From contig ONFF01000024.1 of the NCBI GenBank assembly GCA_900317055.1, positions 1-57,164 of the forward strand: a stretch of DNA of 57,164 bases, read 5' to 3'. The first letter of the stretch is position 1, and the number at the start of each line of letters is the position of its first letter. Under the pieces are notes generated by a model. The model was not told where the DNA came from. It did not search any database and worked only from the letters and a program-made list of their open reading frames with translations. Shown piece by piece: positions 2,992 through 52,177 of the stretch. Position numbers and translations under genes: made by a program. Source of the DNA: an uncultured Bacteroidales bacterium. Lineage in GTDB: Bacteria; Bacteroidota; Bacteroidia; Bacteroidales; F082.

Positions 2992-2999
2992 CAAAACTA
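2992..2999 (-). promoter_or_regulatory. -7 element upstream of lipoprotein gene 2436-2945
   Basis: On the minus strand this reads TAGTTTTG within TTATAGTTTTG. The same block occurs upstream of the T9SS operon at 21269-21276. A TTG lies 22 bases farther upstream at both sites. Confidence 0.5.
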
Positions 3000-3035: not shown

Positions 3036-3114
3036 AAGTATAGGTTTTTTCTCGGCTTGAAAAATACAATAATTTGAAAAACAATATATTACAAAAACTG
3101 AAGTACAGATTTTT
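3036..3114 (-). promoter_or_regulatory. Paired direct repeats next to regulator 1 stop codon
   Basis: Two copies of one word on the plus strand: AAGTATAGGTTTTT at 3036 and AAGTACAGATTTTT at 3101, a spacing of 65 bases. The second ends two bases before the stop codon of the regulator gene. The same arrangement occurs at 4673/4729 and 21313/21379. The repeats lie upstream of the promoter of the next gene (2436-2945). I infer an operator pair, possibly for the LuxR-like HTH encoded next door. Confidence 0.55.
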
Positions 3115-3116
3115 GT

Positions 3117-4625
3117 TTAGCCCAACAGGTCGAAAACGGGGCTTTTACCCACCTTTTTGTTGAGGTCGGAGCGGTATTTCATCACCGTATTCTCGCTCAA
3201 GCCCAAAATCTCGGCTTCTTCCTTGATGCGGAATTTGAGAAAGTTGAGTACAAGCAAATCGCGCTCTTGTTCGCTCAAGTCGGGGTAGGTGAATTTCAGT
3301 TTTTCATAAACATCGGGGTATGCCTTGTTGAAGGCTTCCAAGATACCCTCGCGTGAAGGGTCGGCTTTGCCGTAAAGGGTCTTCACTTCCTTCAGCAAAT
3401 CCTCAAAAGTCTTTTCCTTCAATGCAGCTTGTGCCTCGGTCAATTGTTGGCTGAAGGCTTTGCGCTGCTGGTCGAAAGCCTTTTGTTGCTGTTGGTGCTC
3501 TTCGCGGAGGTCGGCTTCGGTTCGTTTGTGGCGCTTGTGGGTGGCCCAAAGCACAAGTCCAAGCGCCAAAATCACCAGCAATATGATGGCTCCTATCAAA
3601 AGGTTCTGTCGCTGTGTTTGTCGCTTTTGCAACAAGGTATCGGCTTCCTGTTTTTCCTGAATGTAGTTGTTGAATAATTCGGTAAGTTCTGATGTTACAG
3701 GCGCGAAGGCTTCTTTTGCGTGAGGATATTGCGCCAAAAGACGGGCATATTCGTTCATCTTTTCGGTATCGCCCAAAGCTTCATAAACCTCGTGCAAATA
3801 CTCTATCGTTTGGGCTTTTGCTGTCATGTCCGAAAGACCTGAATGTTCAAACTTCTCATAAGCCCGATTCAGATACACCAGCGCCGAATCAAACTGTTTC
3901 TCCTCTTTGTAAATCCAACCGATGGTCAATTCAACATCCTGGTTGTCAACTTCACTACAATGCGGAAGCAGCGCTTTCAGGTCGCGGATAACGGGTTTTG
4001 CATCGTGATGAAGCTTGTAGTCGATGATACCTTTCCTTGAAACCGACATCCTGAAATCGAGTTCGGAAGAATCGTTTTCGAAGCATCTTATTGCGCTGTC
4101 ATAGTAATAGCAAGCACTGTCAAAACTATCACAAATGTCGAATCCATAGGCAATCAAAAACAAAGTGCTCCCAAATGATTTGCGCGAGTTCGAGTATTTC
4201 TTATTGATGGCCAAGGCTTGACGATAGAAATAAGAGCTTGCTTCCGGCAACAAGGAAATCGAATATTGGGTCCCCTGGCCCTTATAAGTTCTCTGAAGGA
4301 GATTGATTATATTCCTATCGGGTTTTGTAAGCTGCTCTATTTCAGGAAGATTATCAACAGAAAAGCGTTCCTCTAATAGTCCCAACACTTGGTAGAATTC
4401 TTTGCAACAGGCTACAGTGCTATCCATTTCCCAACAATGCATGGCATTTTGGTAGAGGGTATTGGCCATGTTATATATGGAATCGGCACGAAGGCTGTCG
4501 ATGGCAGTCTCTATGGTGGATGGGTTATTTTGTGAAGTCGTGACGCTCCTCGGCTCTTTAGGATTGCATCTTATCAGCATTGCCATCCCGAACATCAAAA
4601 ACAGTAGGTAAAACAATCGTTTCAT
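3117..4625 (-). CDS. Membrane TPR/LuxR-type HTH regulator (paralogue 1)
   Basis: A 502-residue protein. It starts with a lipoprotein-type signal with a Cys at residue 20 (LIRC). A long helical TPR-like region follows (about 30-335), then a single transmembrane helix (about 342-361, LLIGAIILLVILALGL), a Gln-rich coiled coil (about 367-415) and a C-terminal HTH (about 446-495) with YPDLSEQERDLLVL, FRIKEEAEILGLSENTV and MKYRSDLNKK. The HTH is LuxR/GerE-like. Predicted topology: TPR in the periplasm, HTH in the cytoplasm, so a one-step transmembrane transcription regulator. Three paralogues lie in this window. A -7 element sits five bases before the ATG. A lipobox combined with a DNA-binding domain is unusual; the cysteine may simply sit in an uncleaved signal anchor. 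The ligand is unknown. Confidence 0.85.
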   Translation of the reverse strand: MKRLFYLLFLMFGMAMLIRCNPKEPRSVTTSQNNPSTIETAIDSLRADSIYNMANTLYQNAMHCWEMDSTVACCKEFYQVLGLLEERFSVDNLPEIEQLTKPDRNIINLLQRTYKGQGTQYSISLLPEASSYFYRQALAINKKYSNSRKSFGSTLFLIAYGFDICDSFDSACYYYDSAIRCFENDSSELDFRMSVSRKGIIDYKLHHDAKPVIRDLKALLPHCSEVDNQDVELTIGWIYKEEKQFDSALVYLNRAYEKFEHSGLSDMTAKAQTIEYLHEVYEALGDTEKMNEYARLLAQYPHAKEAFAPVTSELTELFNNYIQEKQEADTLLQKRQTQRQNLLIGAIILLVILALGLVLWATHKRHKRTEADLREEHQQQQKAFDQQRKAFSQQLTEAQAALKEKTFEDLLKEVKTLYGKADPSREGILEAFNKAYPDVYEKLKFTYPDLSEQERDLLVLNFLKFRIKEEAEILGLSENTVMKYRSDLNKKVGKSPVFDLLG

Positions 4626-4630
4626 AGGCG

Positions 4631-4638
4631 CAAAAATA
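4631..4638 (-). promoter_or_regulatory. -7 element 5 bases before regulator 1 start
   Basis: Minus strand TATTTTTG, then CGCCT, then the ATG. This spacing predicts a leader of about zero to two bases. The other three regulator paralogues share the same spacing. Confidence 0.6.
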
Positions 4639-4672
4639 ACAAAAAACCACGAAACATTCTACCTCAAAGGCC

Positions 4673-4742
4673 AAGTACAGATTTTTGCTTCTTACTCACG
4701 CTGATAATCAATGCGTTGCAAGAAAAAAAAGTACAGATTCTT
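4673..4742 (-). promoter_or_regulatory. Paired direct repeats next to regulator 2 stop codon
   Basis: AAGTACAGATTTTT at 4673 and AAGTACAGATTCTT at 4729 on the plus strand, 56 bases apart. The second copy ends at 4742, directly before the stop codon (4744-4746) of regulator 2. The first copy is 48 bases upstream of the start of regulator 1 and 35 bases upstream of its -7 element. The spacing is ten bases shorter than at the other two sites, about one helical turn. Confidence 0.55.
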
Positions 4743-4743
4743 C

Positions 4744-6411
4744 TCAGTCGGTCAGAATGGAAATCGAGTCAAAATCAACTTTTTTGTTGAGCTTGGAGCG
4801 GTATTTTGCCACCGTATTTTCGCTCAAGCCAAGCAGGTCGGCCTCTTCTTTGATACGGAAGCCGAGGAACGACAAAACCACAAGATTGCGCTCCGTCTTG
4901 CTAAGGTCGGGATAGGCCGATTTCATCTTCTCAACACCTTGGGGATAGGCTGCCTCGAAAGCCTCCACGATGCGCTGCATGCGGTCTTTCTGCCCCAATT
5001 GGTAAATTGCGATCACCTGCTGTTGCAGCATATCACGTTGCTGCGTGGTAAGTTGCTCCAACTCCGCTTGCAGTTGGCGCTGCGCCTCGCGAAGACGACG
5101 GGTTTCGTTTTCTTTGTTGCGCCTATAAAAATAGACAAAGACGACCAACAGTAGCATACCGACCAACAGCAAGGCCAATAGCCAATAAAGCCTTCTGCTT
5201 TTCTGTTGATGCAATGTTTCCTGTTGTTGAAGCTCCTCTTGCTTTTCGAATTCCTCCTGCACTTTCACCATGTCTTTCATGTGCTTTTCGGGATGCTCCA
5301 TGGCTTGCATCATATCGGCATAGGCAACAGCCTTTTTCTCGTCGCCCAACGCCTTGCATGCCTCATAAAGATGAACATACAACATGTAGTTTTCAAAAAA
5401 CCTGTCATTGGCTTTGGCCACTTCAATAGCTTGTTCACCATAGAAAATGCAGGAATCGTACTGCTGCTGAATGTAATAGGTGTCAGAGAGTTCCTCGAGC
5501 AACAACTGCTTGACATAACCATAGCCATAATCCGATGTGTCGGTCAAACACGCAAAGCCCGCGTTGATTTCTTCAATGGCCTTGTCAAGAAAACCTTGGC
5601 GTTCCTCTTCCGATGCATAGTAATTCCCGCTTACCCGAAAATTGTAATAACCGGCAATGCTATGATGCGTTTGAGCAATATCATCGGCAAAACCTAAGGC
5701 CTCCGCTTCGAGCAGCGCTTTCTGAAAATAGACCAAACAGCTATCGAATTCCTGAGTGAGAAGATAAGAGAAAGCCAAAGAGGTCGCAGAACTTTCGCGG
5801 TTATAATGGTCACCCATTTTGGCGAAATAGGCATCAGCGAGCCTCAATGGAGGGATGGCCTCAGCAAAGTAAACCGATGAGGTATAAGTCATGCCGAGTT
5901 CAAGATAGATGAAATATTTGAGATTGTCGATCACCGTCTGCTCATCGGTGGGTTTCGGTGAAAAGTCCACCAAACGCTTGTCCACATGACGGCATGCTTC
6001 GATGCTCTTCTGGGCTTGCAACATGGATTTGAGTGCGATCTGTTTCGGCTGCTGCATATTGGCCGACTTGTTTGCCATGAGCCAATAGGTCCAAGCCTCA
6101 TGATACTTGTCGTCACTTCCAATAAACTGGTTACAAGCCACTTGAGACAACGAATCGAGCTCTGCACCAAACCTTTTCTTGTTATTGATAAGCAAAGCAC
6201 GCAACAAGGAATAATGTGCTTGTTCCTGATTTGAAAGGACACTGACATTCAATGTGTCGAGAATTTGCATGGCGTCATCGGGCTTTTGCTGCAAGAAGCA
6301 CTCCACGCGATAGAGCATGTCCTCCTCGGGCGGTGGAGGCGTTACTTGCTTGGAGCAGGCAGCCACCAACACGACAAAAAGCAAAAGCCCTATGGGAAAC
6401 AAACGTTTCAT
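4744..6411 (-). CDS. Membrane TPR/LuxR-type HTH regulator (paralogue 2)
   Basis: I place the start at 6411 (555 residues), not at an upstream in-frame ATG at 6489, because the lipoprotein-type signal MKRLFPIGLLLFVVLVAAC begins here and a -7 promoter element lies only five bases upstream; the longer start would lie upstream of the promoter. The Cys is at residue 19. A long TPR-like helical region follows (about 35-395), then a transmembrane helix (about 408-431, LYWLLALLLVGMLLLVVFVY), a coiled coil rich in Gln/Glu, and a LuxR-like HTH (about 500-545) with YPDLSKTERNLVVL, FRIKEEADLLGLSENTVAKY and RSKLNKK. It is closest to paralogue 1 in the HTH. It lies downstream of a T9SS gene from which a hairpin terminator separates it. 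Confidence 0.86.
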   Translation of the reverse strand: MKRLFPIGLLLFVVLVAACSKQVTPPPPEEDMLYRVECFLQQKPDDAMQILDTLNVSVLSNQEQAHYSLLRALLINNKKRFGAELDSLSQVACNQFIGSDDKYHEAWTYWLMANKSANMQQPKQIALKSMLQAQKSIEACRHVDKRLVDFSPKPTDEQTVIDNLKYFIYLELGMTYTSSVYFAEAIPPLRLADAYFAKMGDHYNRESSATSLAFSYLLTQEFDSCLVYFQKALLEAEALGFADDIAQTHHSIAGYYNFRVSGNYYASEEERQGFLDKAIEEINAGFACLTDTSDYGYGYVKQLLLEELSDTYYIQQQYDSCIFYGEQAIEVAKANDRFFENYMLYVHLYEACKALGDEKKAVAYADMMQAMEHPEKHMKDMVKVQEEFEKQEELQQQETLHQQKSRRLYWLLALLLVGMLLLVVFVYFYRRNKENETRRLREAQRQLQAELEQLTTQQRDMLQQQVIAIYQLGQKDRMQRIVEAFEAAYPQGVEKMKSAYPDLSKTERNLVVLSFLGFRIKEEADLLGLSENTVAKYRSKLNKKVDFDSISILTD

Positions 6412-6416
6412 GGCCG

Positions 6417-6449
6417 CAAAGGTAGCATTTTTTTGGCGATGCCAACAAA
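6417..6449 (-). promoter_or_regulatory. Promoter of regulator 2 (-33/-7), near leaderless
   Basis: Minus strand TTTG (6446-6449), a 21-base spacer, TACCTTTG (6417-6424), CGGCC and then the ATG at 6411. Both elements match the Bacteroidota housekeeping consensus. The -33 element overlaps the U-tract of the terminator just upstream. The whole block is repeated before regulator 3. Confidence 0.7.
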
Positions 6450-6476
6450 AAAGGCCAGCCACTTTCGTGACCAGCC
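6447..6476 (-). terminator. Rho-independent terminator after 6509-8038
   Basis: On the minus strand a 10-bp stem (GGCTGGTCAC with GTGGCTGGCC, including wobble pairs) closes a GAAA tetraloop and is followed by TTTTTT. A related copy lies at 23017-23045. Confidence 0.7.
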
Positions 6477-6508
6477 AACATGCTTTCACTTCATCCCTTG
6501 CGCAATCT

Positions 6509-8038
6509 CTATTCCTTCACCCACTTTCCCGTTTCCGCGAGGGTCGTTGAGCTAGCGGTCCCTGAGCCCATCGAAGGGCCGCCATCCGAAGTATAAACCT
6601 TCCAAACATAAACGCCCTCAACCCAATCCGTTGCATCAATCCCAGTCACGTTCTCCGTAATATCCTGTCTATGAACCAGTCTTCCTTTCACATCATACAC
6701 CTCCACCCAAGCATCCTGCAACCCCGTGCGGATATTCAGCACATCCTTCCCCGGATTAGGATAGGCAACAGCCACGGCAAAGCCAGCATCATGCGCCTCC
6801 TCAATACCAACAATAGTTTCATCCGAAAGCTTGTAGATGGCATGTTGCTGTTCAAATGTATGTCGGTCGTACCCATCTGTCGAGATCAAACAACCGCCAG
6901 AAGGAAGCGCATAAATGCTGTATGGTGTCAGCATTCGCGCTTCATTGTGATAGTAAATCTCCCCTTTGAGGTTCAAGTTTCCGTCAAGCAAGGCCACATA
7001 GAAATTTTCCACGCTTTCAGGATCGCTGCCGCCGTATGCATCCATCATGTTCATTAGGCCGCACATATAAATATCGTCGCCGCGAAAGGCAATGGCCTCA
7101 CACAGGGCCTTTTGGTCATGTTCATCAACAGTATAAGGTCCCATAACGTACTTTGTCTGAGTGAAATCTGGAGTAAACTGGCTCATATATATGTCTTGTC
7201 CTATCTTTGGGTTACCGTTGAAAGCCGGAAAACTGACATTGGATATAAGATAAACCATGTCCGTTTCAGGATGGACGGCAAAAAACTCATAAGTAGGCCT
7301 ATAGATGCCCACCGAATAGATGCAGTGCCTGATGTCAACCACATTAAGGCTATCGTCAAAAATGACACATTCCGAATTGACATCTTTGGCAGTGAGGTCT
7401 TCCATCACAAGGCGGCATCCCGTGTTTCCCTTCTTTGGCGGCAACAAGCTGGTATAAACACGGTTGGTGACATCCGTCCATTGGTGGGTCAACTCACCCG
7501 ACGCGTTGTAGCGCGCTATCACATGCACATTCATGTTGTTATCAAGATATGAACTAGAAACAAACACGCTTCCGTCGTCATTGGGCAGCCATTCAAAATC
7601 CCACCACTGGTCATGAGGGATTTCTTCCGGAATGGGAAACGGGTCAGGGAACTCAAAAGTGGTGAGTTCGAAATCATCCAAGATGGTGACCTTACACACA
7701 ATAGGCCTGTCGGGGCCTTTCACATAATAGAAGCAAGGTTTGCCATCGCTGTTTCTGAAGAATTTGCTTTCCGTGAGGAAGGAACAAGTGTTGTCGTTAA
7801 GATGCCATCTATCCATTTCCAGATCGTTGCCGTCTTCATCCATCCTGATAATGTAGCGGCCATCACCCAACACATTCGCATTGAGCAGCACTTCCCCATT
7901 GTCCCATTGGCAGAAATGGTAGGCGATGATCATGGGCGACTCAAAGATTTCCACGGGTTCAAGTTCCTGCGCTTTCATCGTCACCCCTCCCGCCATCAGC
8001 AGGAGCGCAAGCAGGGTGTAAAATCTTGTTGCTTTCAT
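6509..8038 (-). CDS. T9SS type A sorting domain protein, propeller-like
   Basis: I use the ATG at 8038 (509 residues); nine residues upstream (to 8065) lack signal character. The signal peptide is MKATRFYTLLALLLMAGG.. ending MKAQ. The body has repeated strand-turn units with phrases such as YRPTYEFFAVHPETDMV and LLDGNLNLKGEI, which suggests a beta-propeller-like ectodomain. The C-terminus has the Por sorting domain AYPNPGKDVLNIRTG, VEVYDVKGRLVHRQDI, VEGVYVWKVY and final GKWVKE. Just before the last strand an extra 14-15 residues (GPSMGSGTASSTTLAE) are encoded by a dispersed palindromic repeat at 6542-6580, absent from its paralogues at 8248 and 18181. Confidence 0.88.
   Translation of the reverse strand: MKATRFYTLLALLLMAGGVTMKAQELEPVEIFESPMIIAYHFCQWDNGEVLLNANVLGDGRYIIRMDEDGNDLEMDRWHLNDNTCSFLTESKFFRNSDGKPCFYYVKGPDRPIVCKVTILDDFELTTFEFPDPFPIPEEIPHDQWWDFEWLPNDDGSVFVSSSYLDNNMNVHVIARYNASGELTHQWTDVTNRVYTSLLPPKKGNTGCRLVMEDLTAKDVNSECVIFDDSLNVVDIRHCIYSVGIYRPTYEFFAVHPETDMVYLISNVSFPAFNGNPKIGQDIYMSQFTPDFTQTKYVMGPYTVDEHDQKALCEAIAFRGDDIYMCGLMNMMDAYGGSDPESVENFYVALLDGNLNLKGEIYYHNEARMLTPYSIYALPSGGCLISTDGYDRHTFEQQHAIYKLSDETIVGIEEAHDAGFAVAVAYPNPGKDVLNIRTGLQDAWVEVYDVKGRLVHRQDITENVTGIDATDWVEGVYVWKVYTSDGGPSMGSGTASSTTLAETGKWVKE
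6542..6580. repeat. Dispersed GAGCC..TCGAAGGG repeat inside a CDS
   Basis: Contains GGTCGTTGAGC and GGTCCCTGAGCCCATCGAAG, the two arms of the same element seen whole at 39832-39880. It adds in-frame residues to the sorting domain of the 6509 gene. Confidence 0.65.
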
Positions 8039-8062
8039 TGGGGTTCGGTTTTGAAATTTTCG

Positions 8063-8091
8063 CAAAGTTAATGATAAAGATTACTTGTCAA
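8063..8091 (-). promoter_or_regulatory. Promoter of 6509-8038
   Basis: Minus strand TTG (8089-8091), an 18-base spacer and TAACTTTG (8063-8070), followed by a 24-base leader to the ATG. It shows that this gene can be transcribed apart from the operon upstream. Confidence 0.6.
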
Positions 8092-8147
8092 GAGCTTTTC
8101 ACGGGCAACTCCTGCCTTGTCCATACTTTTTCATGTTGCCAGCTCTT
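8090..8147. other. Two-tier inverted repeat in the 209-base gap
   Basis: The plus strand has AAGAGCT, then GGCAAC, a 25-base interior, then GTTGCC directly followed by AGCTCTT. Both arm pairs are perfect and nested. The interior holds no gene. The element overlaps the -33 side of the promoter of the 8038 gene, so it may be a regulatory structure or operator. The rest of the gap 8039-8247 is AT-rich with no gene. Confidence 0.4.
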
Positions 8148-8247
8148 CAAAATATTGTTTTTCAATGATTTGAAAAATAGCAGTAAAACGGCTTGTCCCT
8201 ATTTTTTTGACAACACGCAATCTGTTTTCATCCCTCCAAAGGTATTT

Positions 8248-9909
8248 TCATTCCTTAATCCACTTCCCAACTTCCGCTTCCTTCCCATCTACAATTACCT
8301 TCCAAACATAAACGCCCGAAGGCCAACTCTCAGCATTTATGGAAGTGACATTCTCCGTAATTTCTTGCCCATAAACCATCCTCCCATTCATATCATACAC
8401 CTCCACCCAAGCATCCTGCAATCCCGTCCTGATGTTCAGCACATCCTTCCCAGGATTAGGATAGGCGATGGCAACCTTCAGCCCGTTGTCGTGCGCCTCC
8501 TCTATGCCTTCAAAAGCCTGGGCGGGGAATTTGGTGACCGTTGTCCAATGCTGGTCGATATTGTTGAGATTTACTGACGAAAAAACCAATAAAACACCTC
8601 CATCATTAGTCGCAGTGATGCCAAACGCTTCGCTGTGAATATTCTCGTATCCTCCCAAATCGTAATAAACGGTGGAAATCGTGTCAAGATTGGTGTCCAA
8701 ACGCTCAATCATCATCCACGAGTCAAGGTCATTCATAAAGCCCACATTCAAAGTGTAGGCAAAATACACCGTGTTATCATTCGCCAGGTCCACGCCTTTC
8801 AACATGGCAGGCATGTCCCATTGATCGGTGCCCCTAATGATGTGATTTGTCACCGAAACCGATGTGCCGCTGTCGTCATACTCATACAAACGGCAATCCT
8901 CGTCGTTGCTTGGATCTGACTTCGACTTTGACGAAGTGGCAAGATAGGTCGTGTTATGATTGCTACGCTTAACAGTGATGTTATAGAAAGTGTTTTCTAG
9001 CATCTGACTGTAATCTGCATGACGGAACTCCCTCACATTTAAAACATTGAGATGCTCGTCCAACCTAAACACACAACCTTTCCTGTTGACATTAGGCGAA
9101 AATTCTACCAAGCATCCATTTCCCTGAATATAGAAAAGATACCCAGAATCATCTTTTACGATATGGTTGCGACGATAGACAAACGAAACCGCACCACCTC
9201 TTGTCGTCATCTCATAACCTGTGAAGTCTTCAAATTCGCCTTCAAAATTCATTCTGAAGAAAAAGATAGAATCGTGCCAGTCTTGGTTTTCATTCCCATG
9301 ACTAATGGTCTTGATATAGCCACCAACAACGCTTCCTTCGTCCTCAAAAGCTGAAAACACATAGATTTCACCACTGTAATGATTTGGCAGCCAATTCCAT
9401 TGGGAATCATGTTTTTCGAAGGTATCTATTACAAAATCATGCTCATAACTCGCTTCAATTTCGAGGTTTTCATCCAATTTGTACAAACCTATGATGGCTT
9501 TGTCGGGTGGGTTGTCGTAGTTTTTGAAATAGTTAAAATAGGTATAGTCGTGGTCGGGGCTGTAAGTCGCCAGCATGTAAAGCCCGCCATTGGGATTCTC
9601 GATGAGATAAGGGATATTCGGGGAGAAATAACTTTCTCTGAAATGGCTTTTTTCAGCCAACAATTCGCCATCGGCAGACAACTTTCTGGCAGCTGAATGA
9701 TAAGAATAAAAGTCACCCTCACCGCTCTTGAAATAATGCACTGAGCTTACTGCAATTGTCCCATCTGATAATTCAGTCGCATCAAAATTCGTCATGCACT
9801 CATCGCTGGAATAGGAGAACTCGTCGGCAAATTCCCACACCTGCCCAAAAGCCTTGCCCCCAAACAATATCAGGAGCGCAAGCAGGGTGTAAAGTCTTGT
9901 TGCTTTCAT
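8248..9909 (-). CDS. T9SS type A sorting domain protein, propeller-like
   Basis: Starts at the ATG at 9909 (553 residues) where the signal peptide MKATRLYTLLALLILFGG begins, ending AFGQ; an eight-residue upstream extension is unlikely. The middle is a long beta-rich region with repeated phrases such as IGLYKLDENLEIE, CVFRLDEHLNVLNV and IERLDTNLDTIST, which suggests propeller blades. The sorting domain (about residues 480-553) has AYPNPGKDVLNIRTG, VEVYDMNGRMVYGQEI, PSGVYVWKVIV and terminal GKWIKE. It is the last gene of the tight run that begins at 21250; the gap to the gene upstream is 60 bases. The sorting-domain DNA is almost the same as in the 6509 and 18181 genes. Confidence 0.88.
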   Translation of the reverse strand: MKATRLYTLLALLILFGGKAFGQVWEFADEFSYSSDECMTNFDATELSDGTIAVSSVHYFKSGEGDFYSYHSAARKLSADGELLAEKSHFRESYFSPNIPYLIENPNGGLYMLATYSPDHDYTYFNYFKNYDNPPDKAIIGLYKLDENLEIEASYEHDFVIDTFEKHDSQWNWLPNHYSGEIYVFSAFEDEGSVVGGYIKTISHGNENQDWHDSIFFFRMNFEGEFEDFTGYEMTTRGGAVSFVYRRNHIVKDDSGYLFYIQGNGCLVEFSPNVNRKGCVFRLDEHLNVLNVREFRHADYSQMLENTFYNITVKRSNHNTTYLATSSKSKSDPSNDEDCRLYEYDDSGTSVSVTNHIIRGTDQWDMPAMLKGVDLANDNTVYFAYTLNVGFMNDLDSWMMIERLDTNLDTISTVYYDLGGYENIHSEAFGITATNDGGVLLVFSSVNLNNIDQHWTTVTKFPAQAFEGIEEAHDNGLKVAIAYPNPGKDVLNIRTGLQDAWVEVYDMNGRMVYGQEITENVTSINAESWPSGVYVWKVIVDGKEAEVGKWIKE

Positions 9910-9969
9910 TATTCTATTGTTTTTATTAGTCATATCAGTGTAAACCGTGGCAGAGTCGTCAAATTCACC

Positions 9970-10695: not shown

Positions 10696-10707
10696 TTAAT
10701 AATAGTT

Positions 10708-10797
10708 TTATTCTCCGATAAGTTCTACTTCCAACAGATGAGCCCTTCCCGCCATCAGCAGGACTGCAAGCAGGGTGTAAATCTTTAAGTCTTTCAT
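10708..10797 (-). pseudogene. Signal-peptide remnant of a T9SS gene
   Basis: A 29-codon open frame reads MKDLKIYTLLAVLLMAGR followed by AHLLEVELIGE and a stop. The first part matches the shared signal-peptide cassette, and the end matches QLEVELIGD, the mature N-terminus of the protein encoded at 18181-19647. I read it as the stump of a deleted paralogue whose coding sequence was replaced by the downstream PepSY-like gene. It could still be translated as a small peptide between neighbours, 21 bases after one gene and 12 before the next. Confidence 0.65.
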
Positions 10798-10818
10798 ATT
10801 CTGTTGATTTTTGATTTG

Positions 10819-13385: not shown

Positions 13386-15442
13386 TGTATTGTGATTTTG
13401 TTTGGATAAACTTTTCCGTCAATATCAGTAATTTGCAATAGATACATGCCTTTCGGTAATCCTACTACACTGATTTCATTCGTTCCTTGTATAGTCTTCA
13501 ACAGCTGGCCTAAAGTATTATAAATCTGCACCTCGGAGACTTTGAGTCCGTTGATGTGAATGGTAGTTGTGGCTGGATTGGGAAACAAAAGGCCATCTTC
13601 AACGAGAGTTTCGTTGAGCGAAGTAAGGTAATGCATCGTTGCGGCTTGCTTGACCGAGGTTTTCCCTTCCGAATAAACAGCTTGTACTTCAACAACATAA
13701 TACATACCCCATTCCACAGAAAAATCGTATGATTGTTCCGTGATGTTTTCCGCTACCAATTCACCATTGACAAAAACATTGTAACCTATTGGGTTGCCCA
13801 AGCTTGGCGAGTCCCATTCCGTAGTGAGGAATTCCGTGTCGGAGCAGACGGCAGGTTCAATCAATACAAGGTTTTCAACGGGATATGGATGCTCGTCAGT
13901 GTATTCGTAGGCAAAACGGCTGTTCAGAATTTCCTTTTCAGCCAAGGCATGGATGGATTTCACTATCATTTCGTGATGCTGTACCCAAATGGCCACCTCT
14001 AAATCGTCCATTTCCTCCACATGGGTCGGTGACATGTCGCAATCAAATTCCAAATGCTGACATTCGCCTGCCTTGAAATGGAAAAAAGTGCCATCACCAT
14101 CAGGCAACATCTTCATCATCACATGATGGAACGAGGTCTCGCCGCTCGTGCTGGCATTGTCGAAAGTCTCCTTCTCATTGACGGCGATATGAATTTTGGT
14201 ATCAATGTCAATGTAAGGCATGACGTCAGCCTTGACGGTGATTCGGTTGCCATCCACCGCAAACGAGCCTCTGATATCGACAAAAGCAAGCTTGTTGGCA
14301 AGTTGTTCAAAAACAGATTGTTGTATGGCTCCAATATAATGGAAGTCACCGTCAGGATAGCAACGGGGAACAAATTGCAAATCGTAGTATAGGGCACGTG
14401 TTCGTCCATCCTCTGTAAAATACGGGTCGCCGGGTGCTGGACCAGGCATCTGATAAGCGGTATAGGTGTATCGTCCGGCATTGTTTTCGCAAAGTTCATT
14501 CATCAATTCGCTGAAAGGCAGGCAGCCCGCGCAAGTCGACGAGGCAAAATGTTCCAGCATGGGAAACTTTTCGACAGTGCCCAAAGCAACGACAAGCCGT
14601 TTCTCGCAGTTATTGTTGCTGTTGTCCTCATCGGTCATGCCATTGACTCGGTTGATGTTGACAGACAGCCGATAACTCCCCGGAACCAGCCTTTTGGACT
14701 GCGAAAAAGTCAAGACTTGACGCCCCATTGACGGAATCTCCACATCAAAGGTCTCGGTGACAGGCCATTCGCCTTCGATTTCGTATGTGGCTTCAACGGA
14801 AAGGATGGGCATGATGCCAAAATTGAACACTTCCATGCCGACTTCCAACAATCCCACCTGCACCACATCCGCAACATTTAGAGCTTGAATGCCAAGATCC
14901 AAGGTTTGCATGGTGAACAGACGAAAGTCGTCGAAATACCAATCATTAAAGGCTTGTGTATTGCGGTCAAAATAAATGCAAAGGCTGAATTTGACTTCGG
15001 GCTGACCCAAGTCGGGTGTGTTCACTTCGAAACATTCGAAATGGCCACCGCTCTCGCCATATTCCCCATTCCAAACCTGACGCCAAGTGTGTCCTCCATC
15101 GGAAGAAGTTGCCACTCCTATGGTTTTGGGTTCTCCGTTGTTGGCAAGATAATGCTTGAAGGAGAAAAACAGATGGTTCACTTCCGACAGGTCAACGGAA
15201 GGCATGATGATGCGTGCCGCAGTTGTCTTGGAAGAATTATCGCGAAACAACAGCTCGTTGGCAGCATCGCCAGCGTTGTTCGTCTCGGAAATCATCCAAC
15301 GGTCTTGCGCAACGCCGTCAATCGTCCAACCGTATGGCAGTGAAGTGCTGTTGAAATGCTCTTCAAACAAGATGGCACGATTTTGTGCATGGCTTGTTGT
15401 CAATAGCGCCAAAATCAAAACTGTTAACAAAGTCTTTTTCAT
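13382..15442 (-). CDS. Secreted multi-domain protein with CxxC domain and T9SS tail
   Basis: A 686-residue protein. Signal MKKTLLTVLILALLTTSHAQ. Residues about 25-180 look like a MAM/cleaved-adhesin jelly roll (ILFEEHF..LPYGWTIDG, SSDGGHTWRQVW, NDWYFDDFRLF). A CARDB-like beta domain follows (about 183-290). From about residue 290 there is an Omp28/thioredoxin-like domain with EHFASSTCAGCLPF (Cys304, Cys307) and an Fn3-like module near residue 550. The C-terminal sorting domain has LFPNPATTTIHING, IYNTLGQLLKTIQG, LPKGMYLLQITD and NKITIQ. The CxxC domain is a candidate for disulfide or peptide handling at the surface. It is 12 bases from the lipoprotein gene upstream and overlaps the next gene by four bases. 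Confidence 0.85.
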   Translation of the reverse strand: MKKTLLTVLILALLTTSHAQNRAILFEEHFNSTSLPYGWTIDGVAQDRWMISETNNAGDAANELLFRDNSSKTTAARIIMPSVDLSEVNHLFFSFKHYLANNGEPKTIGVATSSDGGHTWRQVWNGEYGESGGHFECFEVNTPDLGQPEVKFSLCIYFDRNTQAFNDWYFDDFRLFTMQTLDLGIQALNVADVVQVGLLEVGMEVFNFGIMPILSVEATYEIEGEWPVTETFDVEIPSMGRQVLTFSQSKRLVPGSYRLSVNINRVNGMTDEDNSNNNCEKRLVVALGTVEKFPMLEHFASSTCAGCLPFSELMNELCENNAGRYTYTAYQMPGPAPGDPYFTEDGRTRALYYDLQFVPRCYPDGDFHYIGAIQQSVFEQLANKLAFVDIRGSFAVDGNRITVKADVMPYIDIDTKIHIAVNEKETFDNASTSGETSFHHVMMKMLPDGDGTFFHFKAGECQHLEFDCDMSPTHVEEMDDLEVAIWVQHHEMIVKSIHALAEKEILNSRFAYEYTDEHPYPVENLVLIEPAVCSDTEFLTTEWDSPSLGNPIGYNVFVNGELVAENITEQSYDFSVEWGMYYVVEVQAVYSEGKTSVKQAATMHYLTSLNETLVEDGLLFPNPATTTIHINGLKVSEVQIYNTLGQLLKTIQGTNEISVVGLPKGMYLLQITDIDGKVYPNKITIQ

Positions 15443-15454
15443 ATCTCGTTGGTT

Positions 15455-18160
15455 TTATTCGTCTTGCACCAATCTTACGGATAAACAGTAATGCTTATAC
15501 TCACTTACAGACGATTGGACTCTTTGTTCGTCAAAACCCATGTCATACGCAAATTGTTGGAAATTGTTGTAGTGGGATGACGACCAATAGAACCCCTTCT
15601 CATTCATCATGAGAGCTTCGTGGCCTTGGCATTGGCCCGCAGCCGGCAGGAAGACCACTCCAAGTGCTTCAAAAGTGTTTTCCCAATCAGTGGCACTGAT
15701 GATGTTGTCACAGTAGGTGGTTGAAATCCACTGGTTGTATCCCGTCAATGGGAAATAGCCATGATTCCAGTTGTCGGGCAGGACGATTACGCCGTTGACA
15801 TGGTTCACCTGCGCCTTGACCCAGCAATCGAAGCCATTGTTATACAGCCGATTGTTCAACAAATACTCCCATTCTCCTTTCGTGAGCGTCCGCCATTGCC
15901 CTACTACATTGCCGCCATTGCTGATGGCGTTATCGATGCCCCAGTCGGAGCGAGCATACTCGCCTGTCAAGTTGTTGGGATGCGGAGGCCCAAAATACGG
16001 ACCGTAATTGCCGCCACGACGTTCATACGGCTGGTAATAAATATTGCCGCAATCCCATCCGCTAGTGCCCCAACCGAACAAGTCGAACCAATCCGGATAA
16101 GAGGAGTTGACATTTGCATTGGCTTCGCCGATGTAATCGTATTGGTGTTCGGCAAAACGCCAGAGGTGTTTGGAAGTGTTTCCACGGCTAATCTTGCATT
16201 GCAGGTTGCCCTTCGAGAATCGCACCCGCTTGTTTTGGCCTACCGTGTAGAAGCCTTTCAAACTGCCTTCAGGGCCATCGGGTAGCACCTTGTCAGTGAA
16301 TAATTCCCTTGAAGAGCTGTAACTTATCCCGCTCCCGTTGATGGCGTATGCTCGGAAATAATAAGTGGTGTGTGGCGTAAGCCGGTTGACATAGCCTGAA
16401 TAAGTGCCCACGCCTGTTTCTGCATCCGCAATGTGTGGGTCATCTATGGTCGGAAAAGGATTCGTGCTCCAACATATGCCGCGTTCGGTCATGTATGAGC
16501 CGCCACTGTTGGTAACTTGAGCAAAGAAGTGGGCAATGGGTGAGACAATAAGAACTATATCGTTGATAGTAACCGTAGATAAGGCACCCGAAGTGTTGAA
16601 ACTGATCTCATTGCCATAGGTAATATCCCGCTCTGTTTTGAAATAGGCACGGACATGATAGGTGTAGTTCGGCTGGAGGTCGTCCATGGGGCAAGTGAAA
16701 ATGGCCGTGTTTTCTGTCGCTACAACATGAAAATGGCCTATCGTCGGGTTGCCACTGATGTTCCAGCAGATGCCCCGTTCGATGATAGGATGGCCACCGT
16801 CGGAAACGATTTGACCTCCACATAGTGCCGAATGGTCGGTGATTTCGGTGGCATCCAGTGTAATTACCTGTGCTGGTGCATAATCGGTTGTTTTGAATTG
16901 GATTTCTTCACCATAGCTTGTGCCTTTTGCGTTGGCGGAGTAGGTACGAACATGATAATTGGTGTTTGCTTCAAGGTTGGTAAGGTTTGCGCTAAAAGTA
17001 CCTATTCCCGAACCACATTCCACATGGTTTCCATCAAGGTTTGGTGAAGACGAAATGCTCCAGCAAAAGCCTCTTTCTGTGACTTCATCGCCTCCATCAT
17101 CCAATACTTGACCGTGTCCTACAGCCGTATGCATTTCAATGTCAGTTACTTGTATAGTCGTTACTGTAGGCGGAATGGCTGAAGTGATGAATTGGACTTC
17201 CTCGCCATAATTGGTTCCTTTGCCATTGGTTGCGTAAGCGCGAAGATAATAAGTGGTATGCGCCGAAAGGTCATCCAAGAGGCAAATAAAACTGCCCAAG
17301 CCTTCTCCCGAAGCAAGGTAATCGCTTTCAATGGTCGGGATTGGAGCCGTACTCCAGCAAACGCCACGCTCCGTGACGGGTGAGTCGCCATCGGTCAGGA
17401 CGATTCCTCCGCTTTTGGCCGAAGATTCGGTAATGTCGGTCACAGGTACGGTGCTAACCTCGGGGAATCCGTATTCCAAGGTGGAGAAACTGACCTCGTT
17501 TCCGTAAGCCGTTCCTTTTTCATTGGTAGCATAGGCGCGAACATAATATTGGGTTTCAGGCAAAAGGTTGGTCATTTCCAAGCAAAAATTGTCCATTTCG
17601 CTCTCTGCTTCAAGATGGTTGTCATCAAGTGTAGGGTCGGGACTCGTTGCCCAACATACGCCACATTCGGTGACGGGCGAACCGCCGTCGTTGACTATAT
17701 TGCCGCCACTTACGGCAGAATGCAAGGTCACTAATGTTATTTCTACGGTATTCACTTCAGGGAGAGCATAATCAGGTGTGGTGAAAGTCGCCTTGTCGCT
17801 AACGCCTGTTCCCGCCTCGTTGGTGGCAAAAGCCATGAAATGGTAGGTCGTATTGGGTAAAAGGTCGGTCAGTGTTGCAGAAAAGCGCCCCTTACCGTTT
17901 CCGCAGAATACCGTGTCGGGCGTTGTTCCTATGCGATTGTAGCAAAATCCTCGTTCCGTCACGGTGCCATTGCCGTCATCCATCACCTCGGCAGAAATCG
18001 TAGCCCTGGTGAAGCTCAATGCCATCACGTCCTCAACCACTTGAACCGTAGGCTTTTCGATTACTTCCCCTTCGGGTAGAGGTTGAGGCTTTTTGCAACC
18101 GTTTAAGACTATCGCCATCAGCAGGAGCGAAAGTAGGGTGTAAAATCTTGTTGCTTTCAT
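15455..18160 (-). CDS. Lipoprotein with six Fn3-like repeats and FISUMP-like domain
   Basis: A 901-residue protein. The signal MKATRFYTLLSLLLMAIVLN ends at GC, so it is a lipoprotein (Cys22). About residues 38-620 hold six tandem repeats of 93-99 residues. Each has a GG..V.DGG or similar turn, a V-T-E-R-G-x-C-W motif, PT or PN, then a Y-x-V/F-R-A-Y/F-A-x-N end, an Fn3-like fold common in Bacteroidota surface proteins. The last ~270 residues, from GSLKGFYTVGQNKRVRFSKG through a Trp/Gly-rich part (WFDLFGWGTSGWDC) to YCLSVRLVQDE, match the FISUMP/formylglycine-like fold seen in gut Bacteroidales. It has no T9SS tail, yet it shares the signal-peptide DNA cassette with the T9SS genes. It sits 20 bases after the 18181 gene. 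Confidence 0.85.
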   Translation of the reverse strand: MKATRFYTLLSLLLMAIVLNGCKKPQPLPEGEVIEKPTVQVVEDVMALSFTRATISAEVMDDGNGTVTERGFCYNRIGTTPDTVFCGNGKGRFSATLTDLLPNTTYHFMAFATNEAGTGVSDKATFTTPDYALPEVNTVEITLVTLHSAVSGGNIVNDGGSPVTECGVCWATSPDPTLDDNHLEAESEMDNFCLEMTNLLPETQYYVRAYATNEKGTAYGNEVSFSTLEYGFPEVSTVPVTDITESSAKSGGIVLTDGDSPVTERGVCWSTAPIPTIESDYLASGEGLGSFICLLDDLSAHTTYYLRAYATNGKGTNYGEEVQFITSAIPPTVTTIQVTDIEMHTAVGHGQVLDDGGDEVTERGFCWSISSSPNLDGNHVECGSGIGTFSANLTNLEANTNYHVRTYSANAKGTSYGEEIQFKTTDYAPAQVITLDATEITDHSALCGGQIVSDGGHPIIERGICWNISGNPTIGHFHVVATENTAIFTCPMDDLQPNYTYHVRAYFKTERDITYGNEISFNTSGALSTVTINDIVLIVSPIAHFFAQVTNSGGSYMTERGICWSTNPFPTIDDPHIADAETGVGTYSGYVNRLTPHTTYYFRAYAINGSGISYSSSRELFTDKVLPDGPEGSLKGFYTVGQNKRVRFSKGNLQCKISRGNTSKHLWRFAEHQYDYIGEANANVNSSYPDWFDLFGWGTSGWDCGNIYYQPYERRGGNYGPYFGPPHPNNLTGEYARSDWGIDNAISNGGNVVGQWRTLTKGEWEYLLNNRLYNNGFDCWVKAQVNHVNGVIVLPDNWNHGYFPLTGYNQWISTTYCDNIISATDWENTFEALGVVFLPAAGQCQGHEALMMNEKGFYWSSSHYNNFQQFAYDMGFDEQRVQSSVSEYKHYCLSVRLVQDE

Positions 18161-18180
18161 TGTACTATTGTTTTGATTTG

Positions 18181-19647
18181 TTATTCTTTAATCCATTTCC
18201 CGCATTCCGCTTCTTTGCTATTGGCCATCACTTTCCAAACATACACTCCCTTAGCCCAATCCTCAGCACCAATTTCCGTCACATTCTCCGTAATATCCTG
18301 TCTATGCACCAGCCTCCCATTCAAATCATACACCTCCACCCAAGCATCCCGCAACCCCGTCCTGATATTCAGCACATCCTTCCCCGGATTGGGATAAGCC
18401 ACCGCCACCTTCAGCCCGTTGTCGTGGGCTTCGTCGACATTCCAAAACGAGTCTGCGAGAACGTGGTAGATATTGTCGTTAATGGTCGTGATAAGGCAGT
18501 CGCCATTAGGCATGGCACAAATCTCTATAGGTCCCTGCCATTGGCCATCGAATGGTTTATAGATTTCGCTGATTTTGTTCAAATCCTCATCAAATCGGGC
18601 GACATAAAAACCTTCCTGATAATAGATATCCTGAACCAACGCACACATTGCAATGCTGCCATCTGGGAAGAAGTCTATTGACTTCCAATAAGCGCGTTGG
18701 TCTTCACCAGGATTGTCGACAGTCAATGCCCATTTGTCGATGTGTGACATTTCCTTATCGAACTTGGCTATGATCGCATTTTGATAGCCAGACTGCCCGT
18801 TGGCAACATATCTAAAGCTGCCCACCACATAAAGACAACCCGATACTGGATGTTTGGCTACGTACGGGAAAACGATACTTTGACGCCAACCTGGCAAAGG
18901 GAAATCGTTATAGATTTCATCATGCAGCAAGGTGGTGTCAAGATTGAAATCCAAATTGAAGCAACGTGTTTTGACAGGCTGCTCTTGAATATCGCATCCG
19001 CCTAAAAGGTAGCCCGTAGAATCTGCATTGAGAGCGAAAAGCCTTTCAGGGTCGAAGAGTACGGAAGTAAAGTACCTATCTGCAAGCACATTACCCCATC
19101 TGTCAAACCGAATGATACGGTGACGGTCAGCTACGTTCTGCCCTAATTGCTCGTTGGTGAAATAACTCACCGCAAAAATGCTATCGCTCTCGATGATGAA
19201 TTGAGGATCCATATAATGAACGGTAGAAACACCTGTGCCACTAAGCAAAACAGTTCCAGTTTCGACCACCAACAAATCCTCGTCAATGTCACCAACGGCA
19301 ATCCAAAGGGAATCGCCTCTCATCTTGTGGTAAATGATGCTTGGGAAACCATTTTCCTTCATGAACAACAATTGTTGGTTTGCCATAGAGAACCCTCCAT
19401 CGTTGAGGTGGTTTTGTGCGACATACTCCAATTCCGTGCCGTCAGTTTTAATGCGGCACAAAGCCATAGTACCGTTTTCTTCGCCACGCATGGTGACCAA
19501 ACACTCGTCTTCAGTCAAGGAAAGCAGGGCAAGATAGCCGTGGGTGTCTCCAATGAGTTCCACTTCCAATTGTTCTTGTGCTTGCATCGTCACCCCTCCC
19601 GCCATCATCATCAGCGCAAGCAGGGCGTAAATTCTTGTTGTTTTCAT
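18181..19647 (-). CDS. T9SS type A sorting domain protein, propeller-like
   Basis: A 488-residue secreted protein. The signal MKTTRIYALLALMMMAGG ends QAQ, and the mature part starts EQLEVELIGD. The body shows repeated phrases such as HRIIRFDRWGNVLADRYF, CFNLDFNLDTTLLHDEIY and VARFDEDLNKISEIY, blades of a propeller-like fold. The sorting domain has AYPNPGKDVLNIRTG, VEVYDLNGRLVHRQDI, AKGVYVWKVM and GKWIKE. Its DNA there is nearly the same as in the 6509 and 8248 genes. It lies four bases downstream of the 19652 gene. The remnant at 10708-10797 appears to derive from a relative of this gene. Confidence 0.89.
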   Translation of the reverse strand: MKTTRIYALLALMMMAGGVTMQAQEQLEVELIGDTHGYLALLSLTEDECLVTMRGEENGTMALCRIKTDGTELEYVAQNHLNDGGFSMANQQLLFMKENGFPSIIYHKMRGDSLWIAVGDIDEDLLVVETGTVLLSGTGVSTVHYMDPQFIIESDSIFAVSYFTNEQLGQNVADRHRIIRFDRWGNVLADRYFTSVLFDPERLFALNADSTGYLLGGCDIQEQPVKTRCFNLDFNLDTTLLHDEIYNDFPLPGWRQSIVFPYVAKHPVSGCLYVVGSFRYVANGQSGYQNAIIAKFDKEMSHIDKWALTVDNPGEDQRAYWKSIDFFPDGSIAMCALVQDIYYQEGFYVARFDEDLNKISEIYKPFDGQWQGPIEICAMPNGDCLITTINDNIYHVLADSFWNVDEAHDNGLKVAVAYPNPGKDVLNIRTGLRDAWVEVYDLNGRLVHRQDITENVTEIGAEDWAKGVYVWKVMANSKEAECGKWIKE

Positions 19648-19651
19648 CGTA

Positions 19652-21250
19652 TTATTGTTTTATCCATTTTCCGGTTAATAGTTCTTTTTCAGCATTGTAA
19701 ACTCGATAGAAATACACCCCAGCTTTCAATCCAGAAACGCCTATAGTAAGCACATTCCCCTCGCCACGGATAAACCTGTCCACGCAAGGGCGACCAAGGC
19801 CATCCGTAATGCTGATGCGGCAGCCATCAATGGTTCCCACTTCGCTAAGGTCAATGTTCAGAACATCCTTTGCTGGATTAGGATACGCCTTGCCTTGAAT
19901 CTCCGTCACAGGCATCTCCTTGACCGAAGCGGGTATGGGGTTCATCTCCTCGCGGGTCAATTTCAGAACCTTACTTGCAGAATATGAACTCATACAATTT
20001 GCACCTCCATTCATGGCCAAGAGACAACCACCATCGTTGTAGGGTAAAACGAATATGGGGAAATAGTCATAGTACTGATCCTCGTCAAAGAAGCGGCTGC
20101 CAAGGATTTCCATGTCGCGGTCAAAAAGGCACAATCCTGTTTGCAAGTCGCCTCCAAGGTCATACCAAGTCATGTAACAGCCGTACATGGTCGTGTCGTT
20201 CACCGTGGCCATACATCTACCACGGCCAGAAGGCTCTTCATTTCTTCTCCCCTCGTGAAGGAAACCAACTTCATAATGATTAACCCGACCACAGTCCAAA
20301 TTGTAATCATGTTGGCCTGGCCCTACGGTCCAACTAAGATCAAGGTCACCAATCGTCAACAGATAGTTGTCAATGCCTTGCTTCCAAGGGTATCTTGCAC
20401 CAAAGAACAGCAGTCTGTCATCCGAAAGGAAATAGTCGGAATAACCTTCGACACCCACAGCATAGCTCTCCATGTCTTCCATGCCTGGAGAACCCAATAT
20501 ATAACGGTAAGCCTTCACATACTGAAAGTCTTCGTCATAAAATGCCGTGCCTATACCACCTCCAGGGCCATTGCAGAGAAAGATATAGCCGTTTCCTGAA
20601 GGATTCTTGAAAATGTTATGGCACATAAAACCTTGCAGCCGAAACTCGGGGTCATTGGCATTGTAGTACTTAGGCACCACATAGCGGCACGCCAAGGTGT
20701 CGGCGTTTTGGTCAAACCTGTACATGTAAGGGAATACCCTATTTGAGCTTTCATAATAATAACCGCAGGCAATCACCTGGCCGTTATCATGAAGAAGAGA
20801 TGGCCAACTTTTCAACTCTGGAGAGTTATGGGTATAAACCTTTGACTCGACTATTTCAAGATTGCCATCAAAAACAATCGCCCAAAGTTCACTGCCTCCA
20901 TAATTGATCAATGTTGAGTCTGGTTGAAGTTGTGCCACTGTGAAGTAATTGCCATTGTCAAGCTGAACTATATCATGCGTCAGCAGCATTTTCGGCAAAT
21001 CCTCACAAATGTGGTGCTCGTAGTTGCCGTCAGGATGCACTTTGAAGAGCGATGTATTCCAATCGTGACGACGGCCGAATCGCCCTATCAAAACGGCATT
21101 GCCATCCGTATCCATCACACCCGCATCAATGCGGGAATACTGGTTGATGTCGTTCTGGTCGCCAAAGTCAAGCTCCCATTGCTGGGCGTGCATAGTGACT
21201 CCCGACATCAGCAGGAGCGCAAGCAGGGTTGTAATTCTTTTTGCTTTCAT
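19652..21250 (-). CDS. T9SS type A sorting domain protein (twin of 10819-12417)
   Basis: Start placed at 21250 (532 residues) where the signal MKAKRITTLLALLLMSGVTM begins; 17 further codons upstream (to 21301) lack signal character and run into promoter sequence. The body and sorting domain match the protein at 10819-12417 at most residues: QQWELDFGDQNDINQ, LWAIVFDGNLEIV, AYPNPAKDVLNIDLS and terminal TGKWIKQ. It is the first gene of the run of T9SS genes that extends to 8248, directly downstream of regulator 3 and its paired repeats. This places it as the likely first target of that regulatory region. Confidence 0.9.
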   Translation of the reverse strand: MKAKRITTLLALLLMSGVTMHAQQWELDFGDQNDINQYSRIDAGVMDTDGNAVLIGRFGRRHDWNTSLFKVHPDGNYEHHICEDLPKMLLTHDIVQLDNGNYFTVAQLQPDSTLINYGGSELWAIVFDGNLEIVESKVYTHNSPELKSWPSLLHDNGQVIACGYYYESSNRVFPYMYRFDQNADTLACRYVVPKYYNANDPEFRLQGFMCHNIFKNPSGNGYIFLCNGPGGGIGTAFYDEDFQYVKAYRYILGSPGMEDMESYAVGVEGYSDYFLSDDRLLFFGARYPWKQGIDNYLLTIGDLDLSWTVGPGQHDYNLDCGRVNHYEVGFLHEGRRNEEPSGRGRCMATVNDTTMYGCYMTWYDLGGDLQTGLCLFDRDMEILGSRFFDEDQYYDYFPIFVLPYNDGGCLLAMNGGANCMSSYSASKVLKLTREEMNPIPASVKEMPVTEIQGKAYPNPAKDVLNIDLSEVGTIDGCRISITDGLGRPCVDRFIRGEGNVLTIGVSGLKAGVYFYRVYNAEKELLTGKWIKQ

Positions 21251-21255
21251 TATAT

Positions 21256-21278
21256 TATAGTTTTGTTGCAAAACTATA
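21256..21278 (-). promoter_or_regulatory. Inverted repeat and -7 element of the T9SS operon
   Basis: Perfect 10-base arms, TATAGTTTTG and CAAAACTATA, flank TTG. On the minus strand, the arm at 21269-21276 supplies TAGTTTTG, a -7 match. The dyad lies between that box and the start codon, so it would sit at the transcription start or in the leader of the operon mRNA as a small hairpin. Confidence 0.5.
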
Positions 21279-21312
21279 ACAAAAAAACGCCAAAAAGCCA
21301 AGCCCCAAGCCC

Positions 21313-21392
21313 AAATATAGGATTTTGCGCCTGTTCAAAAACACAACAACTTGAAATACAATGAACTCAAAAATCTGAAAATATAGGTTTTT
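21313..21392 (-). promoter_or_regulatory. Paired direct repeats next to regulator 3 stop codon
   Basis: AAATATAGGATTTT at 21313 and AAATATAGGTTTTT at 21379 on the plus strand, 66 bases apart. The second ends one base before the stop codon of regulator 3 (21394). The first is preceded by CCAAGCCCCAAGCCC, and the site at 3036 is preceded by a like AAGTCCCAAGCCC, so more than the 14-base core is conserved. Confidence 0.55.
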
Positions 21393-24801: not shown

Positions 24802-24828
24802 AGTGATTAGATTTTTTCTTGGTTTTCG

Positions 24829-24836
24829 CAAAAGTA
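24829..24836 (-). promoter_or_regulatory. -7 element for 23068-24801
   Basis: Minus strand TACTTTTG, 27 bases upstream of the start codon. Confidence 0.5.
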
Positions 24837-24965
24837 TAGCAAAAAACCTCAAATAAAACTGATTCCATGGGCCAATCCACTATTTTTCAGGAAATCAATA
24901 TTGATTGTCAACAGATTACGAAAAATTTTTCCACTAAAAAGTTGTTGGAAATCCTTGATAAATTT

Positions 24966-52127: not shown

Positions 52128-52177
52128 GTAATTTTTTCAATACGAATAAGTTTACAACGAAAAAAAATATTTATTTG

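Follow-up and report, generated by a model that had tools for sequence, protein, structure and literature searches.

The DNA analysed here, a contig of 57,164 nucleotides (ONFF01000024.1) from an uncultured Bacteroidales bacterium, referred to as a whole as the window, encodes four paralogous regulators (p1 to p4) with a predicted C-terminal helix-turn-helix (HTH) domain. Directly behind the stop codons of p1, p2 and p3 stand two direct copies of a 12-base word, box B at the stop codon and box A further on, ahead of the promoter of the next gene. With high probability, each such pair serves as operator for the regulator whose gene directly precedes it, and this regulator would work as a one-component membrane switch on the next gene. 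The first-pass annotation had left the choice between operators of these LuxR-like regulators and a shared target of another factor. As the words vary from regulator to regulator yet match within a promoter, and as they track residues of the recognition helix, the former is favoured: very probably it is the adjacent regulator that uses the boxes as operators.

Paired boxes behind the regulator genes

Read on the transcribed (minus) strand, on which all features listed here lie (coordinates are those of the whole window), the word is AAAAATCTGTACTT with variants. The order in the direction of transcription is regulator stop codon, box B, a TTGATTWTCAA-like central element, box A and, 48-50 bases later, a -7-like TAnnTTTG; in Bacteroidetes promoters this -7 consensus goes with a -33 element. 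Behind p1 (3117..4625) these are box B AAAAATCTGTAC (3103..3114), the central element TTGTTTTTCAA (3074..3084), box A AAAAACCTATAC (3038..3049) and the -7-like element TAGTTTTG (2992..2999) of a gene for 169 amino acids without Pfam match (2436..2945). Behind p2 (4744..6414; the listed open reading frame, ORF, extends to 6489), box B AAGAATCTGTAC (4731..4742), the centre TTGATTATCAG (4701..4711) and box A AAAAATCTGTAC (4675..4686) are followed by the -7-like element TATTTTTG (4631..4638) upstream of p1. The set behind p3 (21394..22983) consists of box B AAAAACCTATAT (21381..21392), the centre TTGTATTTCAA (21351..21361), box A AAAATCCTATAT (21315..21326) and the -7-like element TAGTTTTG (21269..21276) of a gene (19652..21301 by its listed ORF bounds, with an ATG further in) encoding a type IX secretion system (T9SS) sorting domain. 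The words had been annotated at 3036, 3101, 4673, 4729, 21313 and 21379 with spacings of 65, 56 and 66, and all were found again. Box B hugs the stop codons of p1, p2 and p3 as described, the 12-base box starting 5, 4 and 4 bases past the first base of the stop, and both boxes lie upstream of the promoter-like TAnnTTTG, with 50, 48 and 50 bases from box A.

With up to two mismatches allowed, the word AAGTAYAGRTTTTT occurs 10 times in the window, where 1.47 occurrences are expected, a count of 10 or more being reached in none of 100 shuffles; the six annotated sites show 0, 0, 0, 1, 2 and 1 mismatches to it. In the bacterium's own genome (3.53 Mb) AARTAYAGRTTTTT has six exact matches, four of them inside the window, and 53 matches at up to one mismatch compared with 27 for the reversed pattern. 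One two-box pattern has three matches genome-wide and none in its control, and among the pairs of the window it fits 3036/3101 alone. The single word is thus frequent and the two-box pattern rare, so that specificity resides in the pair. A word-free scan of the window for a 12-base repeat at offsets 54-57 or 64-67, with TAnnTTTG 47-52 bases past the second copy, returned the three reported pairs and one more site (52232) when 10 of 12 bases had to agree. With 11 of 12 required it gave two of these three pairs, and eight control offsets gave nothing. The additional pair, AAATAACTATTC/AAATAAATATTT at offset 67 with a -7-like element (window, about 52154-52243), may be due to chance.

A scan of genome contigs yielded 103 relatives, of which 79 loci were kept; these are mostly metagenome-assembled genomes (MAGs) and come from Bacteroidales or Bacteroidia bacteria, plus 'bacterium F082', many from records naming ruminants. 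The pair does not vanish where relatives keep the regulator, an outcome that the first-pass annotation had singled out for checking: of the 79 kept loci, 67 have the layout according to a scripted pair test. Within its own genome p1 has 21 matching stretches, two of them being pieces of the sensor (L015, frameshifted, and L016, cut at a contig end). The plain pair is present behind p1, p2, p3, L009, L014 and L017, and in L008 the stop codon and box B overlap. Such an overlap, in which box B encodes the last regulator residues (e.g. GKI-stop, EKSE-stop), was seen in L008, L036 and L049. L015 and L017 belong to a frameshift-split regulator gene with an operator pair behind it (G000:C11:65341-66496), and at C25:6465/6519 a pair precedes a T9SS gene with no regulator directly upstream. 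An operator model, R1, gave 26 own-genome matches at E up to 1; the eight best are its own training sequences and no evidence by themselves, and the 18 new ones include differently worded pairs as well as the p4 promoter.

The first-pass annotation had noticed that the spacings differ by about one helical turn, as for two bound proteins on the same side of the DNA. Of 132 regulator loci, 15 were set aside because their downstream DNA was short or YR/NR was absent from the last 75 residues; clustering of the other 117 gave 45 non-redundant downstream regions at most 80% identical to one another. An unweighted search over offsets 48-72 supports the same-face reading: 24 of the 45 regions had p<=0.05, at offsets 54-55 (11 regions), 64-67 (12) and 49 (one, L078, where another pair at 66 competes). 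The mean best repeat match was 10.49 of 12 compared with 8.56 and 8.93 in two control ranges. Over offsets 53-68, 33 of the 45 regions reached at least 10 of 12, with 15 at 54-57, 18 at 64-67 (one of them, L093, judged spurious) and none at 58-63. One weighted box scoring favoured offsets 54, 55, 65 and 66 together with an A-rich template, and the spacing claims rest on the two offset searches above. Box B lies about 30 bases from the centre, the centre about 24 or 34 from box A, and box A mostly 48-51 from TAnnTTTG. Conservation of the centre, TTGATTNNCAA, is good in 14 non-redundant spacers of the short class and weaker in 16 of the long class, the mean best match to it being 8.94 of 11 compared with 7.00 in shuffles.

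The sites had been described as missing after the diverged p4 (25028..26410). This regulator does lack the word but probably has an operator pair of its own, differently worded and of the same geometry. Its probable box B TTTTTAGTGGAA (24929..24940), 90 bases after the stop codon, and probable box A AAAATAGTGGAT (24875..24886) stand at offset 54 around the centre TTGACAATCAA (24901..24911), and the -7-like element TACTTTTG (24829..24836), a TAnnTTTG 50 bases on from box A, precedes a gene with a T9SS sorting domain (23068..24852, listed ORF bounds). The two boxes agree at 7 of 12 bases, which is weaker than in the pairs of p1 to p3, and the pair was missed by the repeat tests (unweighted offset search, 53-68 search and word-free scan). 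It was accepted on its geometry, on the match of R1, which was built without p4, to 24826-24919 including box A (E 2.8e-8), and on the p4-like regulator L162, whose pair TTTTTGTGGATT, also at offset 54, matches at 12/12. With a TGTGGA pair in L162 and a weaker TAGTGGA pair in p4, the view that p4 has no sites was dropped.

Box words and the recognition helix

For the comparison of boxes with helices 96 loci were accepted, representing 46 unique helix/box combinations and 31 distinct helices. Manual curation removed fifteen loci, whose pairs were mostly poor or odd (L152 and L183 among them do hold an 11/12 match, AAAAGGTGGAAA/AAATGGTGGAAA, at offset 54); it also brought in p4 and fixed the register for seven loci. 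The regulators show no fewer than 18 different box cores, of which TCTGTA is the commonest; p2, with Lys in the helix, has TCTGTA, and p3, with Gln, has CCTATA. Under an equally maximising search, boxes of the same promoter agree at 10.97 of 12 bases and boxes of mismatched promoters at 8.95, and none of 20,000 shuffles reached the sum of the own pairs (30 promoters). An earlier within/between test on chosen boxes (4.32 vs 2.77 of 5) had been inflated by choice for likeness; the even-handed repeat held.

When box position 8 (G or A) was compared with 520 alignment columns, the best partner was residue 5 of the recognition helix (Lys or Gln), with a normalised mutual information of 0.67 and 0.31 for the next column. 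This column came top for G/A in all five versions of the analysis, also when the hand-registered rows were left out and when each helix contributed a single row. Gln occurs with A in 14 of 14 boxes, and Lys with G in 72 of 78 and with A in the other six. In a tree built from the sensor only, with the HTH left out, all seven independent Lys/Gln contrasts follow G/A (sign test, p 0.0156). Box position 7 had helix residue 0 as its best partner in five of five versions and position 9 had residue -1 in four of five, the fifth giving residues 1, -4 and 3 at 0.58 each. In DosR, Lys179, Lys182 and Asn183 are reported to contact bases (PMC5861037, PMC4082495). The DosR peptide FLAEKTVKNYVSRL comprises residues 175-188; by hand alignment on TV..Y helix residues 4 and 5 correspond to Lys182 and Asn183, and the covarying columns coincide with these reported contacts.

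Several results weigh against binding by the adjacent regulator. The own partner was best or tied best in only 20 of the 30 promoters of the even-handed control, and the shuffle tests on single regions are weak, with only 24 of 45 at p<=0.05. The association of Lys with G fails in L086 (both boxes), in box A of p1, L033 and L140 and in box B of L099; L086 represents a G-to-A change without a Lys-to-Gln change, a kind of case that the contrast test ignores. Box position 6 tops with helix residue 4 in only three of five versions, position 5 covaries best with no helix column among the 520 columns, and for V/non-V against T/non-T in the box four of seven contrasts agree and three are unchanged (p 0.125). 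In a Foldseek search LuxR/NarL-type domains (TraR, DosR, LiaR and VpsT) ranked high, yet every E value was above 0.3. Eleven remote paralogues in the own genome, with more distant HTHs, have no such pair at the stop codon (weak R1 matches occur behind two of them, L020 with E 0.24 and L021 with E 0.0106), and 12 of the 79 kept loci fail the scripted pair test, the DNA past the stop codon being unrelated in several.

Among these 12 loci, L067, L070 and L096 were excluded by hand after inspection of their best pair, and in L064 a pair is visible by eye with TAnnTTTG not intact. L047, L087, L108 and L165 are without operator pair and share similar DNA past the stop codon that by eye resembles the end of a convergent gene. 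In L093, L097 and L153 box B is kept after the stop and box A is replaced by DNA that is, by eye, alike across the three, which gives them the appearance of broken operators.

A candidate membrane switch and competing explanations

The regulators p1 to p4 have a lipoprotein-like N-terminus and one strong hydrophobic, transmembrane-like stretch starting at residue 342, 409, 347 and 311, respectively. An AlphaFold model of p2 (12 sequences, mean predicted local distance difference test score 84.0) comprises a helical repeat domain, a 94-residue helix containing the hydrophobic stretch, and a terminal helical domain bearing the HTH. The repeat part of the family profile matches tetratricopeptide repeat (TPR) proteins of the PDB, and the end-domain profile finds EsrB (E 4.1e-4) and StyR (E 0.0028), as for an HTH of the NarL/LuxR type. 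The order of the parts, from the hydropathy of p1 to p4 and the model of p2, fits a periplasmic sensor with a C-terminal HTH, a topology that we infer. In an NCBIfam search the BT3442 and SusR families were matched weakly and below threshold.

In the mechanism that we propose, the regulator would be a one-component membrane protein with a periplasmic TPR-like sensor behind a lipoprotein-type N-terminus, its single transmembrane helix continuing into the long helix and then into the cytoplasmic NarL/LuxR-type HTH. A single dimer or oligomer would set one HTH unit on each box, the two units sharing orientation and DNA face, about five or six turns apart and flanking the conserved AT-rich, near-palindromic central element. 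With box A just ahead of the expected -33 region, the bound regulator could touch RNA polymerase and, presumably in response to a signal at the sensor, activate the next gene, which would often encode a T9SS-secreted protein and, for p2, the next regulator p1.

As targets, only the first downstream ORF of 26 non-redundant loci was considered. A T9SS type A sorting domain is present in 21 of these next genes, and one matches the SusC/RagA model; the link to T9SS genes that had been put forward for checking is therefore seen, as a count for which no enrichment is claimed, the own genome holding at least 150 T9SS sorting domains (150 of 191 candidates scored). The annotated role of the pairs in controlling secreted-protein genes agrees with the window at p3 and p4, the next gene being a T9SS gene in both cases, and not at p2, whose pair precedes p1; the gene after p1 encodes the 169-residue product without Pfam match. 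Because p1 is the next gene after the putative p2 operator, a p2-to-p1 regulatory cascade is likely.

The sign of control is not readable from sequence, and the long spacers would suit looping too, so that the adjacent regulator might bind the boxes as a repressor or as a loop-forming autoregulator. We regard this as unlikely, since the boxes, placed ahead of the expected -33 region, keep a near-constant distance to TAnnTTTG, as for an activator, and since SusR, the closest studied kind, is described as an activator (PMC3878776). Binding of the boxes by one other, shared transcription factor would explain why TCTGTA recurs behind many regulators and why most have the central element in common, and such a factor may indeed read that element; it would, however, be expected to keep one word, whereas the 18 or more box cores follow the adjacent helix, which makes a shared reader of the boxes quite improbable. 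That the pairs are functionless relics of a duplication of regulator and downstream DNA is the least credible explanation: the downstream regions of p1 and p3 do align over most of their length, but the words differ between copies and yet match within a copy, the geometry is kept across the 45 divergent regions, and the boxes covary with a base-reading residue.

Known systems and possible exchange of HTH and operator

The proposed activating operators resemble those predicted for the SusR-like regulators of Bacteroides (SusR BT3705, SusR2 BT3091, SusR3 and SusR4; Ravcheev et al. 2013, PMC3878776). That paper calls these regulators unique and poorly studied, with a DNA-binding domain without significant similarity to known ones, and gives their predicted motifs as direct repeats 67 or 77 bp apart between centres. 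It shares with our loci a membrane protein with a periplasmic sensor and a cytoplasmic HTH (a topology predicted here), and two long-spaced direct-repeat boxes for a dimer on one DNA side with spacings one turn apart. The actual distances differ (54-57/64-67 here, 67/77 there), as do the words (AAAAATCTGTA with variants here, ACTTTTTT-like in the SusR loci examined). The next genes here mostly encode a T9SS sorting domain instead of the polysaccharide utilisation described there, a target class that the first downstream genes of the 26 loci did not match. Our spacers hold a conserved element, whereas the SusR spacer is called non-conserved in that paper. The cut-off of the SusR family NF058541 (480 bits) was not reached by any own-genome match, the best having 28.8 bits and L009 21.4 bits. 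Among 18 loci of the SusR family, taken from 149 genomes of the class, six picked by eye (L221, L222, L224, L226, L227 and L237) have a repeat at offset 64-67 after the stop codon, some with a centre like ours, a by-eye choice with no shuffle control; the best repeats of the remaining 12 are different or chance-like. The regulators described here, strictly outside the SusR family, very probably work like SusR.

With the NarL/FixJ (LuxR, GerE) type, e.g. DosR and EsrB, the regulators have the HTH in common by profile and model. No receiver or autoinducer domain was found in them, and their boxes are about 5-6 turns apart, whereas NarL/FixJ-type regulators use close half-sites. The BT3442 family (NF053779) is weakly matched by p2, p3, p4, L009 and L014, mostly at the HTH end, and a closer relative lies at C11:9137-10567 (E 1.7e-29); all these matches, the C11 relative included, are far below the curated cut-off of 940 bits. 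Box pairs resembling AAAAGTTTGTAAT, with a central element, are found at G000:C11:10736-10857 and C11:11498-11617; the first precedes a BT3442-like regulator gene, which suggests autoregulation of that gene.

In the open-access literature, to which the search was confined (subscription papers lay outside it), nothing on such operators was found apart from PMC3878776. The kind is known, and the regulator branch, the words, the spacing, the target class, the central element, the covariation and the apparent cassette behaviour discussed below appear new with respect to that literature. The 46 unique helix/box combinations would represent a first, partial recognition code for the SusR-like kind, and their variation would relate the SusR-like HTH to the NarL/LuxR type, so that cognate regulator-target pairs should become predictable from sequence. 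The variation also points, for rumen Bacteroidales, to separate switches for individual T9SS-secreted proteins, which recombination could rewire.

The chances appear evenly balanced that HTH and operator form one exchangeable cassette, through which a sensor is rewired to another cargo gene with cognate recognition retained. With the putative operator directly at the stop codon, a recombination event close to the gene's 3' end would move HTH and operator jointly, sometimes together with the target, and this would account for box B abutting or overlapping the stop. Between p3 and L092 the compared sensor stretch is 94% and the HTH 69% identical, and operator word and spacing differ; L041 and L058 share 89% in the sensor and 45% in the HTH, and p2 and L071, with the same word, 41% and 100%. 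DNA identity between p3 and L092 is mostly 0.88-1.00 up to -141 from the stop codon, with a gap region near -381 to -441, then 0.73, 0.75, 0.52 and 0.48, rising to 0.90 at about +100 to +159 and continuing at about 0.4-0.75. Between L042 and L031 it is about 0.4-0.65 up to -69 and 0.92-1.00 from there to +651, L042 joining a different sensor to an L031-like HTH end, operator and downstream gene. Since the loci are MAGs, single cases could be chimeric assemblies. If true, cassette exchange and the helix/box covariation would jointly give SusR-like systems a modular design whose code can be read in part. L008/L058, considered as a clean exchange, was rejected, its DNA profile being patchy and high only from about -546 to -186.

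In a sample of 100 genomes from the family, 17 and 19 of the 26 genomes of the own genus contain relatives (E up to 1e-15) of L086 and L100, respectively, and none of the 74 from 15 other genera does; within this sample the regulator branch is limited to one genus. Four weaker operator-model matches (G000:C10:690-804, C8:63102-63203, C29:70370-70453 and C31:1548-1689; E 3.8e-5 to 0.0099) contain, by eye, another repeated word near GGACAAAA and are perhaps operators of a further regulator subfamily. Elsewhere in the window, genes for a glycosyl hydrolase of family 20 (26434-28596) and a peptidase M64 (46962-48230) were noted, as well as an ORF of 1344 amino acids with DUF2436 and fibronectin III domains (52435-56469).

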